Shown here one piece after another: positions 4,318 to 12,713 of a DNA stretch of 64,000 nt. The stretch comes from Nitrospirota bacterium (GTDB lineage: Bacteria; Nitrospirota; JACRHL01). The first letter of the stretch is position 1. The number at the start of each line of letters is the position of its first letter. The notes beneath the pieces were generated by a model. That model did not search any database. It was not told the DNA's origin and was given only the letters and a program-made list of their open reading frames with translations. The translations under genes were made by a program, and so were the position numbers. The stretch covers positions 91,468-155,467 of the forward strand of contig JAOUFN010000004.1 of the NCBI GenBank assembly GCA_029858285.1, given 5' to 3'.

Positions 4318-5142
4318 CTACGAGCCCTGCGCGCAGCGGAAACCCACGTCGTTCACCCGCCCTTCGGGGGAGAGGAACAGCCGGAACGAGGCGCGGGAGT
4401 TGTTGGCCACCACCTCGTTGAACTGGTCGTGGTCGGGAAAATGTCCGGGGCTGGCCCAGGAGTTGCCGCGCAACACCCGGTATTTCTGGCCGAATTTTTC
4501 GTCCTTGTGGGTGCTGCCGGGGTAGGGCAGGTACCAGTCGGCGGTCCACTCCCACACGTTGCCGATCATGTCGCGCACGCCGTAGGGGCTGTTGCCACGC
4601 AGAAAACTGCCCACCGGCGCGGTATTGTTGCGGGCCACATTGGCGGCCTCCGGGTCGAAGCTGTTGCCCCACGGATAGACCAGGCCAGAGGTACCGCGCG
4701 CGGCCTTTTCCCACTGGGCTTCGGTGGGCAGTTCCTTGTGGCCGTCCCAGGCGCAGAAATCACGGGCGTCGTACCAGGTCACATGGGTCACCGGGTGCTG
4801 CTCCAGCCCTTGGGGCGGGGTGGACTGGCCGTTCCAGTGGGGCGGCGCCTGGTGGTTGGTGGCTTTCACAAAGGCCGCATAACGGGCGTTGGTCACCTCG
4901 TCCTGATCCATGAAGAAGCGCGCCAGGGGAACCGTGCGTTCCGGCCGCTCCGCATCGAACCAGGTGATCATCAGGCCCAGTTCTTCGGCCCGCCCTTCGG
5001 TGTCCACCGTGTTGGTGCCCATTACGAACGGCCCGGTGGGGACATCCACCATGCCGGGGGGAGGATTCTTGCAGCCGCTGACGGCGAGGAGGGGGATGAA
5101 GGCCAGCAGACAGGTGGCCAGCAGGGACGGACGGGTTTTCAT
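4318..5142 (-). CDS. SUMF1/formylglycine-generating-enzyme-fold lipoprotein, no catalytic Cys pair
   Basis: The ATG at 5142 overlaps the preceding stop (ATGA) and gives a 274-residue protein with a lipoprotein signal (LLAVSGC, acylated Cys near residue 24). Starts further upstream would remove this signal. The rest is a SUMF1 domain: GPFVMGTNTVDTEGR, EVTNARYAAFV, LPTEAQWEKAARG, YPWGN, MIGNVWEWTADWYLPYPG, VLRGNSW and a terminal VGFRCA. The region where true formylglycine-generating enzymes carry C-x4-C has no Cys (RGNSWASPGHFPDHDQ), so sulfatase activation is unlikely. It is probably an envelope binding or scaffold protein. It is third of three tandem SUMF1 genes. Confidence 0.88.
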   Translation of the reverse strand: MKTRPSLLATCLLAFIPLLAVSGCKNPPPGMVDVPTGPFVMGTNTVDTEGRAEELGLMITWFDAERPERTVPLARFFMDQDEVTNARYAAFVKATNHQAPPHWNGQSTPPQGLEQHPVTHVTWYDARDFCAWDGHKELPTEAQWEKAARGTSGLVYPWGNSFDPEAANVARNNTAPVGSFLRGNSPYGVRDMIGNVWEWTADWYLPYPGSTHKDEKFGQKYRVLRGNSWASPGHFPDHDQFNEVVANNSRASFRLFLSPEGRVNDVGFRCAQGS

Positions 5143-6266
5143 GGTTTTTCCCTCCCGGAGGGGGCGGCGCCGGAATTCGGCGTGGTTGTCGGCGTGGTTG
5201 TCGGGGCATTTTTCGGGGCCTCCGCCGCGCAGCGGAAGCCGAACGAGTTGTTGCGGATTTTGGGGGTAAACCGGCTGCGGTTGTAGGTGGGCGCCGAAAG
5301 GCCGCAGCCGTAGGACAGGCAGTCGTACCACGAGCCGCCGCGCAACACCTTGTTGATTTCACCGTAGTGGGTGTCGGGAAATTCGTTGCCGGGGTAGGGC
5401 AGGTACCAGTCGGCGGTCCACTCCCACACGTTGCCCGACATGTCGTACAGGCCGAAGGGGCTTTTGCCGTTTTCGAAGGAGCCCACCGGCATGGTGTCGC
5501 CTGCCTCGCCGTGGGCGGCCCAGCGCTGGGGGGTGTTGGCGCGTTCCAGTTCGAAGTGGTTGCCCCACGGGAAAATGCGCCCGTCGGTGCCGCGTGCGGC
5601 CTTTTCCCACTCCAGTTCGGTGGGCAGGCGTTTGCCCTCCCAGCGGCAGAACTCGTCAGCGTCGAACCAACTGACGTACACCACCGGATGCGGCTTCTTG
5701 CCGGGGGGGATTTTGCCGTCCTTCCAGTGGCGCGGGGCCACATGTCCGGTGACATTTACAAACCCCTGGTAACGGAGGTTGGTCACCTCGTACAGATCGA
5801 TGTAAAAGGCCGGCAGATCGACCACATGCTCCGGGGTTTCGTCCAGATTGCCCTTGCCCTCGGTAATCTCCCGGCCGTCGTTGCCAACGGTAACGGGACC
5901 GGCGGGGATCAGCGCCATGCGCGCCAGATTGGGGCCGTGGCCCCGGCCCGGCCTGTCGGCGCCGGGGGTGTCGGCCACGGTGAGCAGGGGCAGTTCATGG
6001 CTGCCTGCGTGGCATTCGGCGCAATCACCGCGCCCCATGTCTACCCGTGGGCCACTGCCGTCGGGGCCGTGGCAGGCGCCGCAGGCCTCGGCGGACACCG
6101 CCGTGAACGGCGTGCCGGGATGAGGGGAGGACATTTTCCCGTCGTCGGCCTGTGCCGTCCACGGAATGGCTGCCAGCAAAACGGCCAGCAGGGCCACAGC
6201 CGGAAACGGCATGCCCGAACGCGGCAAAGCGCCCGGCATGTCCCCAGGTATCAGCCAACGGGGCAT
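5139..6266 (-). CDS. Di-heme c-type cytochrome fused to SUMF1/FGE domain, Cys pair retained
   Basis: The start at 6266 (MPRWLIPGDM) lies one base after the previous gene's stop; an upstream ATG at 6302 would overlap by 35 bases. The 375-residue protein has an N-terminal export signal (VALLAVLLAAIPWTAQA) and two heme-c motifs, CGACH and CAECH, about 20 residues apart. A complete SUMF1 domain follows: GPVTVGNDG, EVTNLRYQGFV, LPTELEWEKAARG, FPWGN, MSGNVWEWTADWYLPYPG, VLRGGSW and FGFRCA. After RGGSW it reads YDCLSYGC, a C-x4-C pair at the place of the copper-binding catalytic cysteines of formylglycine-generating enzymes. It is exported and probably periplasmic. The tail is Thr/Pro-rich. A redox-linked enzyme is inferred; no sulfatase gene is in the window. 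Confidence 0.88.
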   Translation of the reverse strand: MPRWLIPGDMPGALPRSGMPFPAVALLAVLLAAIPWTAQADDGKMSSPHPGTPFTAVSAEACGACHGPDGSGPRVDMGRGDCAECHAGSHELPLLTVADTPGADRPGRGHGPNLARMALIPAGPVTVGNDGREITEGKGNLDETPEHVVDLPAFYIDLYEVTNLRYQGFVNVTGHVAPRHWKDGKIPPGKKPHPVVYVSWFDADEFCRWEGKRLPTELEWEKAARGTDGRIFPWGNHFELERANTPQRWAAHGEAGDTMPVGSFENGKSPFGLYDMSGNVWEWTADWYLPYPGNEFPDTHYGEINKVLRGGSWYDCLSYGCGLSAPTYNRSRFTPKIRNNSFGFRCAAEAPKNAPTTTPTTTPNSGAAPSGREKP

Positions 6267-6267
6267 G

Positions 6268-7247
<980 letters not shown>

Positions 7248-7248
<1 letters not shown>

Positions 7249-8711
7249 CACGAGAGTCCGTACTCCTTCCAGCGCCGGGTGACCCGTTCCACCACGTCCG
7301 CGTCCATGCGGATGGGCGTACCCCACTCGCGGTGGGTCTCCGGCGGCAATTTGTGAGTGGCGTCAATGCCCATCTTGCTGCCCAGTCCGGCCTCCGGACT
7401 GGCAAAATCCAGGTAATCAATGGGTGTGTGTTCCACCAGCACTGTGTCGCGGACCGGATCCACGCGGGTAGAGATGGCCCACATCACGTCGTTCCAGTCG
7501 CGCACGTTGATGTCGTCGTCCACCACTACGATGAACTTGGTGTACATGAACTGGCGCAGCACGCTCCACAGCCCGAACATGACGCGCCGGGCGTGGCCAG
7601 GATACTGCTTGCGGATGGAGATCACCGCCATGCGGTAGGAGCAGGCCTCCATGGGCAGATGCAGGTCCACCACCTCGGGGAACTGCTGTTTGAGCAGAGG
7701 CACGAACACGTCGTTGAGGGCCAGGCCCAGGATGGCCGGCTCGTCCGGCGGCCGCCCGGTGTAGGTGCTCATGTAGATGGGATTGCGCCGGTGGGTGATG
7801 GCGGTGGCGGTGAACACCGGGAATTTTTCCACCTGGTTGTAATAACCGGTGTGGTCGCCATACGGCCCCTCGTCCGCGTAATCGGTGAGGGACACGTGTC
7901 CCTCGATGACAATCTCCGCCGTGGCGGGCACAGTCAGGGGCACGGTCTTGCAGTCCGCCACTTCGATTTTTTTGCCCCGCAACAGGCCGGCGAAGTGGTA
8001 TTCGCTGAGGGAATCGGGCACCGGAGTGACTGCGGCAATGGTGGTGGCCGGTTCGCACCCCAGGGCAATGGCCACCGGGATCGGGTCGGGTTTTTTCTTG
8101 CCGACCCACGCCTGATGGTCCAGGGCGCCCCCCCGGTGGGCCAGCCAGCGCATGATGGCGCGGTTTTTCCCCAGCACCTGCATGCGGTAGATACCCACGT
8201 TGATGCGCCCGCCGTCCGGACCACGGGTGATCACCAGCGGCCAGGTGATGAGCGGGGCGGGCTCCCCCGGCCAGCAGCCCATCACCGGCAGGCGCGTCAA
8301 ATCTACCTGATCGCCGCTGAGCACCACCTCCTGACAGGGGGGGCGCGACACGGTTTTGGGTGGCATGTTCATCATCGCCTTGACCAGCGGCAGCTTGTCG
8401 AAGGCGTCCATCATCCCCCTGGGGGGTTCCGGCTGGCGCAGGGAGGCGAGCATCTCCCCCACCTGCCGCAGGCCGCCGGGGGCGATCTCCAGGCCCATTT
8501 CGATGCGCCGCACGCTGCCGAACAGGTTGATCAGCACCGGCCAGTCGTACCCCTTGGGGCGCTCGAACAGCAGCGCCGGGCCGTTCCGGGCCAGCACGCG
8601 ACTGCCGATCTCGGTCATTTCCAGGTGCGGATCGACCTCGGCCGCGATGCGCCGCAATTCCCCCTCTTTTTCCAGACGTTTGAGGAACTCCCGCAGATCG
8701 GCGTAGGGCAT
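7248..8711 (-). CDS. ubiD: UbiD-family 4-hydroxy-3-polyprenylbenzoate decarboxylase
   Basis: A 487-residue cytosolic UbiD decarboxylase (E. coli UbiD is 497). It uses prenylated FMN to decarboxylate 3-polyprenyl-4-hydroxybenzoate in ubiquinone synthesis. The protein opens [19 protein letters not shown], as in the family. It contains [17 protein letters not shown], the acidic active-site segment [13 protein letters not shown], and the metal/flavin region [18 protein letters not shown]. The C-terminus has the canonical [12 protein letters not shown]. The start overlaps the ubiA stop (TGATG), so the two successive steps of the pathway are translationally coupled. A flavin prenyltransferase (ubiX) is not in the window. 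Confidence 0.95.
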
Positions 8712-9571: not shown

Positions 9572-9710
9572 CAGTTCCAGCACGGCGCGGGCCGTTTGCC
9601 ACGCAACCCGGGCGCGACCGGGTGCGGCGGGGGCGGACGCGGAATGGTTTACGACCGGGCGGAAACCCAATGGGCAACCCTGACAAAAAAAGGGGGAGAA
9701 AACCCGCCCG

Positions 9711-9739
9711 ATGGTACGTTTCGGGGCGCGGCGAGTCAA
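9711..9739 (-). promoter_or_regulatory. Candidate sigma-70 promoter for the ubiA operon
   Basis: On the minus strand TTGACT (9739-9734) is followed after 17 bases by TACCAT (9716-9711). The -35 matches 5 of 6, and the -10 keeps the conserved TA...T. It lies 140 bases before the chosen ubiA start. Confidence 0.5.
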
Positions 9740-9793
9740 GGCGACCAGGGGGGGCGCCGCCGCCAGGCAACGGGGCGACAGGGCAGGGGAGCA

Positions 9794-9822
9794 TTTACCG
9801 GCGCGGCCGTGGCGTCTATAGT
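9794..9822 (+). promoter_or_regulatory. Candidate sigma-70 promoter for the GNAT-deacetylase gene
   Basis: TTTACC (9794-9799), a 17-base spacer and TATAGT (9817-9822) lie about 75 bases before the TTG start. The match is moderate at -35 and good at -10. Confidence 0.45.
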
Positions 9823-9895
9823 GGTGGCGACCGTGCTGGCACGGGCGTGCGCGGTTGCGGACGCCGATGTTGTCCCCCCACCGCGAGAGGCCCCC

Positions 9896-11815
9896 TTGAT
9901 CCGCTTTCGTTACCTGTTTGGAATTGGCCGCGACCTGGACCGCCGTCAGGTCGAGGAGGCGCAGGACATCTATCGCCGCTGCTTCCCCTACGCCCCCGAA
10001 TACGCGGACCGCATCGGAGAATGGCTGGCGCGTTCACCGCGTCGTGATCTGGAGCCGATCCTGTTGCTGGCCCTGGGGGCGCGTGCAGTGATCGGCTTTA
10101 GTTGGGTGATGTATTTCCCCGACCTGCGTTACGCCTACCTGGACTACCTGGCCAGCGATCCGGGACGTTCCGCGCGGGGCATTGGCGGCGCCCTCTACGA
10201 GGCCACCCGCGAGGTGCTGCAACAAAAAGGCGCCCGCGGCCTGTTCCTGGAGGCCCCCCACGACGACCCGGAACTGCTCAAGGATCCCTCCCGTGCGCCG
10301 GTGAACCACAAGCGCATGCTGTTTTACGAGCGCTACGGGGCCCTGCCGGTGGTCGGTACCGCGTTTGACCGCACCGCCACCACCGCCAACGAAGGCTGGA
10401 TGACCCACCTGGTGTATGACAGCCTGGGCCGCCGGGCGGAACTGCGCGGTGGCGATGCCCGCAACTTTGTGGGCGCCCTGTACCGGCGCAAATACGGCCT
10501 CAACCCGGACAACAAGGTGCTGTCCGGCATCATCGCATCGTTCCGCGACGGCCCGGTGAAGCTGCGCCAGCCAAAGAAGGGCCGGGATGTTGGCGGGGAT
10601 GCGGGGGACTCCGGGGACGCTGCTTCCAGGCCCGCCAAGGCTTCCGCCAGCAAAACCGTCAAGTCGCCCGCCAAATCGCCCGCCAAAGTGACTGCCAAGG
10701 GTGCTTCTGGCAAAGCCTCCGCCACCAAAACCGTCAAGTCACCCGCCAAGGCCCCCGCCGCCAAGGCAACCAAAGGCACCATCGTCAAGCCTCCGGTCGT
10801 GGACGTGGTGCGGCGCATCTATCCGGTCAAGCTGGTCACCAATGAGCGGCATTTTTTGCACCACATGCGGGAAAAAGGCTATGTGGAGCGCCCGGTGCGC
10901 ATGGACGCCGTGTTGCGCGGGCTGGAAGGGCTGGCGGTGGAGCAGGTGCGGCCGCACCACTTTGGCGAAGCGCCCATCCGCGCCGTTCACGCGGCGTCCC
11001 TGATCGGCTACATGGCGCGAGCCTCCAGCCGCCTGCAGGCCCGGCAGTTGATCTATCCCACCGTATTCCCCATGCGCCGCCGCCACCGCCCGCCCCGCGA
11101 GTTCGAGATGCGCGCCGGATACTACTGTCTGGACACCTTCACCCCCCTGGGGCACAACACCTACGCCGCCGCGCGTTCCGCCGTTGACACCGCCCTCACC
11201 GGCGCCAATCTGGCGCTGGACGGCGAGCGCTATGTCTATGCCCTGTGCCGTCCCCCCGGCCACCACGCCGAACCCAATGCCTGGGGCGGTTTTTGCTACT
11301 TCAACAACGCCTCGGTGGCCGCCCACCACCTGTCCGCCCACGGCAAGGTGGCGCTGCTGGACATCGACCACCACCACGGCAACGGCAGCCAGCAGATTTT
11401 TTACCAGCGCAACGACGTGCTGGTGGTGAACCTGCATTGCCACCCGGATTTCGCCTATCCGTACTTCAGCGGCTTCGCCGACGAACGCGGGGAGGGGGCG
11501 GGCAAGGGGTTTAACCGCAACTACCCCCTGCCCCCCGGCACCGGCGACAAGGAGTATCTGAAGGCGCTGGCCGAGGCGCTGCGTGACATCGCCCGCTTCA
11601 AGCCGGAATTTTTTGTGGTGTCGGTGGGGTACGACATCATGCGCGGAGACCCCACCGGCTCCTTTGCGGTCACTTCGCGGGGGATGCGCAAAATCGGTGA
11701 ACAGTTGGCGGCGTTGCGCCTGCCTACCCTGCTGGTACAGGAAGGGGGATATTCCCTGAGCAACCTGCGTCAGGGTTCACGCGCCTTCATCACCGGCCTG
11801 ACCAGTATTTGGTAA
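9896..11815 (+). CDS. Fusion: GNAT acetyltransferase - Lys/Ser/Ala-rich linker - acetylpolyamine amidohydrolase/HDAC-family deacetylase
   Basis: The start chosen is TTG 9896, five bases after GAGAGG, giving 639 residues. Residues 1 to about 215 resemble a GNAT acetyltransferase (LDYLASDPGRSARGIGGALY is the acetyl-CoA loop region; MLFYERYGALPV follows). Residues about 225-300 form a Lys/Ser/Ala/Pro tract with repeated SKTVKSPAK and ATKTVKSPAK units, like the tail of histone H1. From about 305 to the end is a class II-like zinc deacetylase: RPPGHHAEP, GGFCYFNNAS, LLDIDHHHGNG (zinc Asp and His), ADERGEGAGKGFN, GYDIMRGDP (second zinc Asp) and QEGGYS (catalytic Tyr). ADERGEGAGKGFN and QEGGY place it with acetylpolyamine amidohydrolases. 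All zinc ligands are intact. Substrate may be polyamines or acetyl-lysine; the pairing of opposing activities is the notable point. Confidence 0.88.
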   Translation: MIRFRYLFGIGRDLDRRQVEEAQDIYRRCFPYAPEYADRIGEWLARSPRRDLEPILLLALGARAVIGFSWVMYFPDLRYAYLDYLASDPGRSARGIGGALYEATREVLQQKGARGLFLEAPHDDPELLKDPSRAPVNHKRMLFYERYGALPVVGTAFDRTATTANEGWMTHLVYDSLGRRAELRGGDARNFVGALYRRKYGLNPDNKVLSGIIASFRDGPVKLRQPKKGRDVGGDAGDSGDAASRPAKASASKTVKSPAKSPAKVTAKGASGKASATKTVKSPAKAPAAKATKGTIVKPPVVDVVRRIYPVKLVTNERHFLHHMREKGYVERPVRMDAVLRGLEGLAVEQVRPHHFGEAPIRAVHAASLIGYMARASSRLQARQLIYPTVFPMRRRHRPPREFEMRAGYYCLDTFTPLGHNTYAAARSAVDTALTGANLALDGERYVYALCRPPGHHAEPNAWGGFCYFNNASVAAHHLSAHGKVALLDIDHHHGNGSQQIFYQRNDVLVVNLHCHPDFAYPYFSGFADERGEGAGKGFNRNYPLPPGTGDKEYLKALAEALRDIARFKPEFFVVSVGYDIMRGDPTGSFAVTSRGMRKIGEQLAALRLPTLLVQEGGYSLSNLRQGSRAFITGLTSIW

Positions 11816-11902
11816 CCGCCACGGACCCCGGAGGGCGCGGCTCCCGGCGGCAAAAGATGCGGACGGAGCAATGGCGGGTGCCGGGTGCGATGCGTCGATT
11901 TG

Positions 11903-11911
11903 TGATATTAT
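11903..11911 (+). promoter_or_regulatory. Extended -10 promoter candidate for purQLF
   Basis: TGATATTAT at 11903-11911 is an extended -10 (TGn plus TATTAT) about 105 bases before purQ, in the AT-richest part of an otherwise GC-rich gap (11816-12015). No convincing -35 is seen, as is common for extended -10 promoters. Confidence 0.45.
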
Positions 11912-12015
11912 ACCGGGCCGGTATCCCGTTGTTCTGCCGTTTATCCGTGTAGTCGTCGCGATCCGTTAGAACCAACCCAGCCATCCCGTTTGTCCCCTGT
12001 GACTGGAGCCGTTCC

Positions 12016-12713
12016 GTGACCATCGGCATTGTTGTCTTCCCCGGATCCAACTGCGACCACGATGTGGAGCATGTGATCGGGCGTGTGTGCGGGGCCAAAA
12101 CCCGCTTTCTGTGGCACAAGGAAACCAGCCTGGAGGGGATCTCCGCCGTGGTGTTGCCGGGTGGATTTTCCTACGGCGATTACCTGCGCTGCGGCGCCAT
12201 CGCCCGTGTCAGCCCGATCATGGAGGAGGTTCGCCGTTTCGCCCGCCAGGGACGTCCGGTGGTGGGCATCTGCAACGGCTTTCAGGTGCTGGTCGAGGCC
12301 GGCATCCTGCCCGGCGCCCTGGTGCGCAACGCCAGCCTCAATTTTATCTGTCGCCCGGTCTCCCTGCGCGTCGAGCGTACCGATTCCCCTTACACCACCG
12401 GCTACCTGGAGAGACAGGTGGTGAACTTCCCGATCGCCCACGCCGACGGCAATTTTCAGGCCGATGCGGAAACCCTGCGGCGTCTGGAAGGCGAGGGGCG
12501 GGTGGCGTTCCGCTACTGCGCCCCCGACGGGCGTGTGGACCCCGCCGCCAACCCCAACGGCAGCCTTGGCAACATTGCCGGCATCTTCGGCACCACCCGC
12601 AACGTGCTGGGGCTGATGCCCCACCCCGAACGCAACGCCGAAGGTGCGCTCGGCGACGCCAGCGGGAGGCCGTTTTTTGCCGGTCTGCTCAACCACCTGG
12701 CAGAGGTCACCGC

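Follow-up and report, generated by a model that had tools for sequence, protein, structure and literature searches.

A widespread bacterial fusion of a GNAT acetyltransferase with an HDAC-like zinc deacetylase, and its gene links to ATP-grasp amide ligases

What might a bacterium do with an acetyltransferase and a deacetylase, enzymes of opposite reactions, in a single polypeptide? The question is raised by a gene in a 64,000-nucleotide stretch of a Nitrospirota genome (contig JAOUFN010000004.1, positions 91,468 to 155,467 of the forward strand; hereafter the window), which encodes an N-terminal GNAT domain, a disordered tract rich in Lys, Ala, Ser and Pro, and an intact C-terminal zinc-deacetylase domain in one open frame (Table 1). 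Most bacterial HDAC relatives have no known substrate, and a writer and an eraser in one chain invite a reading as a protein regulator. Instead, the family is reproducibly linked in genomes to paired amide ligases and to a radical enzyme that forms beta-lysine, and this leads to a concrete, testable small-molecule hypothesis, for which we name Rhodovulum marinum and Planctomycetes bacterium Poly30 as test hosts. We tentatively favor the reading that the GNAT–HDAC fusion acetylates and deacetylates a small molecule resembling lysine or beta-lysine, at an amine, and that the cell's own ATP-grasp amide ligases couple this molecule to a partner.

A family with two conserved enzyme halves

A protein search returned 1898 homologs at E ≤ 1e-3, and fused and unfused forms were judged among the best 120 of these 1898, a list that includes the window protein and so leaves 119 relatives for comparison. 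At least 200 of the 225 GNAT columns are filled in 118 of the 119 best-listed relatives (the shortest relative fills 186) and at least 300 of the 329 deacetylase columns in all 119, so the premise of the initial annotation that the two enzymes are normally separate fails within this family. Lengths are correspondingly uniform, with 117 of the relatives spanning 572–603 residues and the other two 537 and 666, and a domain scan of 30 members found Hist_deacetyl in all 30 and Acetyltransf_1 in 28. The nearest relative among the matches listed, P0003, is 69% identical over aligned columns, and several listed relatives already carry the source name ‘acetoin utilization deacetylase AcuC-like enzyme/GNAT superfamily N-acetyltransferase’. 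The arrangement of an N-terminal GNAT and a C-terminal zinc deacetylase in one chain is therefore not unique to the window but a widespread bacterial family, known if apparently undescribed. NCBIfam models gave no match to the fusion protein at E up to 1. Literature coverage that leaves out most subscription journals yielded no paper on GNAT–HDAC fusions or on the gene cassette described below; the accessible part of PMC11532494 makes no mention of GNAT fusions, ‘fusion’ there denoting affinity tags, and that of PMC8556138 adds nothing on fusions.

The single-frame fusion observed at first is thus confirmed, with conserved residues kept in both halves. Because the joined order is numerous among relatives and the frame is open, neither a frameshift uniting two genes, looked for as a refutation, nor a one-off event accounts for it. 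The acetyl-CoA loop of the GNAT superfamily follows the motif R/Q-x-x-G-x-G/A. In the window protein we take the R-G-I-G segment to be this loop, and its two glycines, G95 and G97, are invariant in all 120 members of the family alignment and throughout the 23-row alignment of the GNAT half. Together, fold and conserved loop place the protein in the GNAT superfamily and rule out a degenerate GNAT; a domain lacking the acetyl-CoA pocket fold, the second refutation sought, was not seen. The deacetylase half carries the residues of a classical zinc deacylase (PF00850), namely H456, H457, D491, H493, D580 and Y619. Presumably the His–His pair is catalytic, D491, H493 and D580 are zinc ligands, and Y619 is the transition-state tyrosine. 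The two large alignments draw on the nearest matches to the window protein and so describe mostly its own clade.

Gene links to aminomutase and ATP-grasp ligases

Beside the fusion in a sister clade lies a cassette of lysine 2,3-aminomutase (kamA), two D-Ala-D-Ala-ligase (Ddl)-like ATP-grasp enzymes and a small stand-alone GNAT, a link that is new here. A scan of named genomes kept 80 loci, 23 with both halves (L003–L022, L024, L027 and L028) and 56 with a deacetylase but no GNAT-half match; L023 was left out of the locus counts, being a contig fragment that has just the deacetylase half. Thirteen of the 23 both-half loci (L006, L009, L010, L011, L012, L013, L015, L016, L017, L019, L022, L024 and L028) have both ligases and the stand-alone GNAT no more than 7 kb from the fusion; kamA is also present in 11 of these 13, and the exceptions (L009 and L019) sit on contigs 8 and 7 kb long. 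By contrast, the cassette stands beside none of the 56 unfused deacetylases (L070 has a weak 50-bit ligase match, and some flanks are short), a difference with a Fisher p of 4e-9. An aminomutase search of the other 10 fusion genomes located the cassette elsewhere in five (L153–L157, with the GNAT undetected in L156) and did not find it in L003, L014, L020, L021 and L027. The link recurs in class samples. Among 274 gammaproteobacterial genomes, 15 hold the fusion, 10 the cassette ligase and five both, adjacent in every case (p = 5e-5); among 289 alphaproteobacterial genomes the corresponding counts are seven, 19 and five, with adjacency in four of the five (p = 1.4e-5).

A midpoint-rooted tree with 53 rows, drawn from 43 loci plus 10 listed homologs and leaving out L023, L027 and L028, separates clade I, 19 rows that include the window protein and of which nine have genomic context, from clade II, with 34 rows, at supports of 100/100. 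All 18 cassette-adjacent rows fall in clade II, where five more have the cassette elsewhere in the genome and 11 have none known. In clade I, a methyltransferase–ATP-grasp fusion is present in all four genomes searched whole (the window's own, G000, and G003, G068 and G198), and it lies within 0.8 kb of the GNAT–HDAC gene, in divergent orientation, in L003 and in L189 (from G068). The partner common to both clades is thus a Ddl-like ATP-grasp ligase, pointing to the making of small-molecule amide bonds. Further clade I relatives, sought in the order of G490, turned up in two of 10 genomes, both known before.

With respect to the cassette enzymes, the aminomutase looks lysine-type on the strength of two residues. 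The Asp residues at sites matching D293 and D330 of 2a5h, which we take to be the binders of the lysine epsilon-amine, are both present in 27 of 27 cassette copies and in three of three window-family copies. Two cassette KamA copies score 475–478 bits against the lysine 2,3-aminomutase model and do not reach its cut-off of 525. The L013 cassette GNAT has a match (E = 3e-39) in 2r7h, whose deposited annotation is a putative D-alanine N-acetyltransferase.

Several points weigh against tying the fusion to ligase chemistry. First, the Fisher tests ignore shared descent, and each genome had just a part of its first-look candidates scored, making the absences soft. Second, the association is loose in both directions, with the cassette ligase absent from 10 of the 15 gammaproteobacterial fusion genomes and the fusion absent from ligase-positive genomes in five of 10 gammaproteobacterial and 14 of 19 alphaproteobacterial cases. 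Five gammaproteobacterial genomes (L203–L207) also hold the whole cassette but no fusion protein, which makes the fusion an optional or replaceable part of it. Third, no cassette is nearby in one 10-row subclade of clade II, and the cassette adjoins none of the nine clade I loci with context, the genome of L004 being the only one of these known to hold it, elsewhere. In the window itself, no cassette gene was found anywhere (tblastn, 1e-6); across its genome the assembled cassette was not found: a kamA (50% identical) is there, as is the methyltransferase-ligase, but on contigs other than the window's. Fourth, the methyltransferase-ligase occurs without the GNAT–HDAC fusion in G001 and in three of five gammaproteobacterial genomes with the full methyltransferase-ligase, and none was seen within 7–8 kb of the fusion in L004, L021, L244 and L245, whose genomes were not searched for one. 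Fifth, both Asp residues are shared by four of eight contrast KamA rows (two genes listed twice), so the pair marks the lysine type weakly. Finally, the GNAT and HDAC domains could act on proteins instead.

Other features of these loci were recorded in passing. A class I methyltransferase and a Ddl-like ATP-grasp ligase form one protein of about 640–710 residues in L127, L129, L255, L251, L189, L003 and L252–L254, and its gene adjoins a Na/H-exchanger-family gene in G000 and G003. Near kamA in the window genome, a strongly repetitive open frame (L112 1–633, contig C7) contains units like GVTAVAGLTATRGVAVVAR on the minus strand. A neighbor survey of 25 loci from both clades that have no cassette beside them gave a few small clusters of 3–6 loci besides the fusion and antisense matches, and the only one identified was an M32 carboxypeptidase (L189, L244 and L245); this Taq-type enzyme's gene adjoins the fusion in L244 and L245 and the methyltransferase-ligase neighbor in L189. 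Halomonas-type loci (L029–L033 and L055) have two or three deacetylase-domain matches close to one another on the same strand.

Candidate functions

HDACs and acetylpolyamine amidohydrolases cleave an alkyl-NH-acetyl end, and N-epsilon-acetyl-beta-lysine has the same one. This chemistry, the shared Ddl-like ligase and the precedent of AblA/AblB argue for a role on a lysine-like small molecule, with the acetyl group as a protecting group or storage switch. In the methanogen system, lysine is converted to beta-lysine, whose epsilon-amine is then acetylated to give N-epsilon-acetyl-beta-lysine (accessible text of PMC1224877), and in another ligase pathway an amine is proposed to be blocked by acetyl before the peptide-coupling step (PMC2922099, from the part available). 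In the scheme that we infer, substrate, direction and order of reactions included, the GNAT half would mask an amine in an acetyl-CoA-dependent reaction, by analogy with the action of AblB on beta-lysine; the masked compound would be coupled by the ligase or stored; and the HDAC half would take the acetyl group off again. Housing both activities in one chain could create either a two-way switch or a protect–couple–deprotect step. In the window organism, the partner would be the methyltransferase–ATP-grasp fusion on another contig, not a full cassette. More broadly, the gene links suggest that ATP-grasp peptide chemistry may make use of acetyl as a protecting group that can be taken off again.

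A more elaborate version, rather unlikely in its full detail, would make the fusion the one-chain protect/deprotect catalyst of an undescribed bacterial pathway: beta-lysine would come from lysine 2,3-aminomutase, a GNAT would mask one of the amines, the paired Ddl-like ligases would assemble a metabolite resembling a beta-lysine dipeptide, and the mask would be removed by the HDAC half. The window's clade would then be a variant that uses the methyltransferase–ATP-grasp fusion, and the window member would add a self-acetylatable Lys tail between the active sites.

The strongest rival to a small-molecule role is reversible acetylation of protein lysines, the chain acting as writer and eraser in the manner of a fused counterpart of Bacillus AcuA (a GNAT) and AcuC (HDAC-like), which act on acetyl-CoA synthetase. 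We regard this alternative as possible. The fold neighbors of the GNAT half include the protein acetyltransferases GCN5, RimI and NAT, but also small-molecule GNATs, and the D-P-T-G segment at the gatekeeper place of the deacetylase half, which we liken to the DPLG of lysine deacetylases, counts in its favor. However, the recurrent gene neighbors that could be identified are mostly small-molecule enzymes, and no acetyl-CoA synthetase gene was recognized among the recurrent neighbors, some clusters being unidentified and no search having been aimed at that gene.

A polyamine cycle, in which the GNAT half acetylates and the HDAC half deacetylates putrescine or spermidine to keep free polyamine in range, had been suggested in the initial annotation and finds some structural backing, as the closest solved structures of the deacetylase half are acetylpolyamine amidohydrolases (9gkz, E = 5.5e-71; Table 1). 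The active-site gatekeeper tells a different story. Bacterial polyamine deacetylases carry a PIS motif at this place, according to the accessible text of PMC11532494, whereas PTG replaces it in all 120 members; among 35 further proteins (34 clade II rows and L028), DPTG is present in 27 and DPTS in one, and seven were missed by the search pattern. This replacement takes weight from a polyamine role, no polyamine gene is found among the identified recurrent neighbors, and we consider the cycle unlikely.

The basic linker had been compared to eukaryotic and bacterial H1-like proteins, and the likeness in composition stands. The interdomain stretch has 16 Lys in 91 residues, a charge of about +12.7 over 76 residues and KSPAK units, and its Lys/Ala/Ser/Pro tract of about 70 residues is predicted to be disordered from the predicted local distance difference test (pLDDT); a strongly basic tail of this composition characterizes H1-like and HC1/HC2 proteins, although the agreement is one of resemblance only. 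No histone-H1-like or HC1/HC2 Pfam family matched the window protein at E up to 1, and a search of the rest of the window genome gave no comparable tract (next match, E = 0.22). Moreover, the same alignment columns hold only 22–30 residues in all 119 best-listed relatives, among them P0003 from the same-family relative G003, whose genome lacks the insert too. As the short interdomain stretch is common in the family and not defining, we regard the window protein as a variant and not as a non-member. The linker contains a duplicated 75-nucleotide unit, the copies being 84–86% identical over 37–49 nucleotides, and its third-position G+C is 0.74, versus 0.81–0.84 in the domains. The simplest account, and from the sequence a likely one, is a tandem-duplication spacer inserted into an otherwise two-domain protein, rather than a chromatin tail; in that light, the Lys tail seems to have been added in a single lineage and not to be why the domains are fused. 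Because this linker is private to the window protein, an H1-like tail is ruled out as the family function, and the proposal of a DNA-bound protein, in which the GNAT half would acetylate the chain's own disordered Lys-rich linker and the HDAC half would clear it to tune DNA binding, draws on a feature that every relative compared lacks and is highly unlikely. Overall, the interpretation first attached to this gene is partly supported.

The locus and its relation to known systems

Table 1 Coordinates of the fusion gene and its features in the window
Feature	Position	Strand	Remarks
GNAT–linker–HDAC fusion gene, 639 residues	9896..11815	+	TTG start, picked via homolog alignment
GNAT acetyltransferase half, residues 1–225	9896..10570	+	Pfam Acetyltransf_1 at 21–120, at cut-off; fold
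R-G-I-G loop, residues 94–97	10175..10186	+	G95 and G97 invariant
Private basic disordered linker, residues 230–302	10583..10801	+	pLDDT <50 at 230–291 and 293–302
Linker repeat copy 1	10632..10668	+	37 nucleotides matched; copies 75 nucleotides apart
Linker repeat copy 2	10707..10743	+	84% identical to copy 1
Zinc deacetylase (HDAC/acetylpolyamine-amidohydrolase-like) domain, residues 330–634	10883..11797	+	Pfam Hist_deacetyl E = 1.9e-72; 9gkz template modeling (TM) score 0.92 by target length
His–His pair, H456–H457	11261..11266	+	Invariant, 120/120
D491 and H493	11366..11374	+	Invariant, 120/120; aligned to DVDYHHGNG of 9gkz
D580	11633..11635	+	Invariant, 120/120
D-P-T-G segment, residues 585–588, gatekeeper place	11648..11659	+	Invariant in 120; aligned to DPIS of 9gkz
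Y619 (EGGY)	11750..11752	+	Invariant, 120/120
Sigma-70-like promoter match	9794..9822	+	Consensus match only; upstream of fusion gene

In the window, the fusion gene is flanked by ubiA/ubiD and a purQ-like gene, and two sigma-70-like promoter matches occur on both strands of 9600–12100, versus 0.2 expected. Elsewhere in the window, three FGE-sulfatase-domain genes stand in a row at 4318–7326 on the minus strand; the middle one (5139–6302, minus strand) has CGACH and CAECH, heme-c-like motifs, N-terminal to its FGE domain.

The listed GNAT–HDAC relatives share the domain order of the window protein without its basic insertion. Acetylpolyamine amidohydrolases (9gkz, 6phr, 3men and 3q9b) resemble its HDAC half in sequence (36% identity), catalytic residues and fold, but their solved chains of 341–362 residues have no GNAT half, and their gatekeeper is PIS where PTG stands here. 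To our knowledge, AblA/AblB operate without ATP-grasp ligases or a deacetylase; in this system an aminomutase is followed by an acetyltransferase, and the sister-clade cassette also has a lysine aminomutase. AcuA and AcuC of Bacillus form an opposing pair of GNAT and HDAC-like enzymes that switches acetyl-CoA synthetase, as described in the available portion of PMC13039410. The window protein likewise pairs the two opposite activities, but it carries them in one chain, whereas AcuA and AcuC are separate proteins with a known protein substrate.
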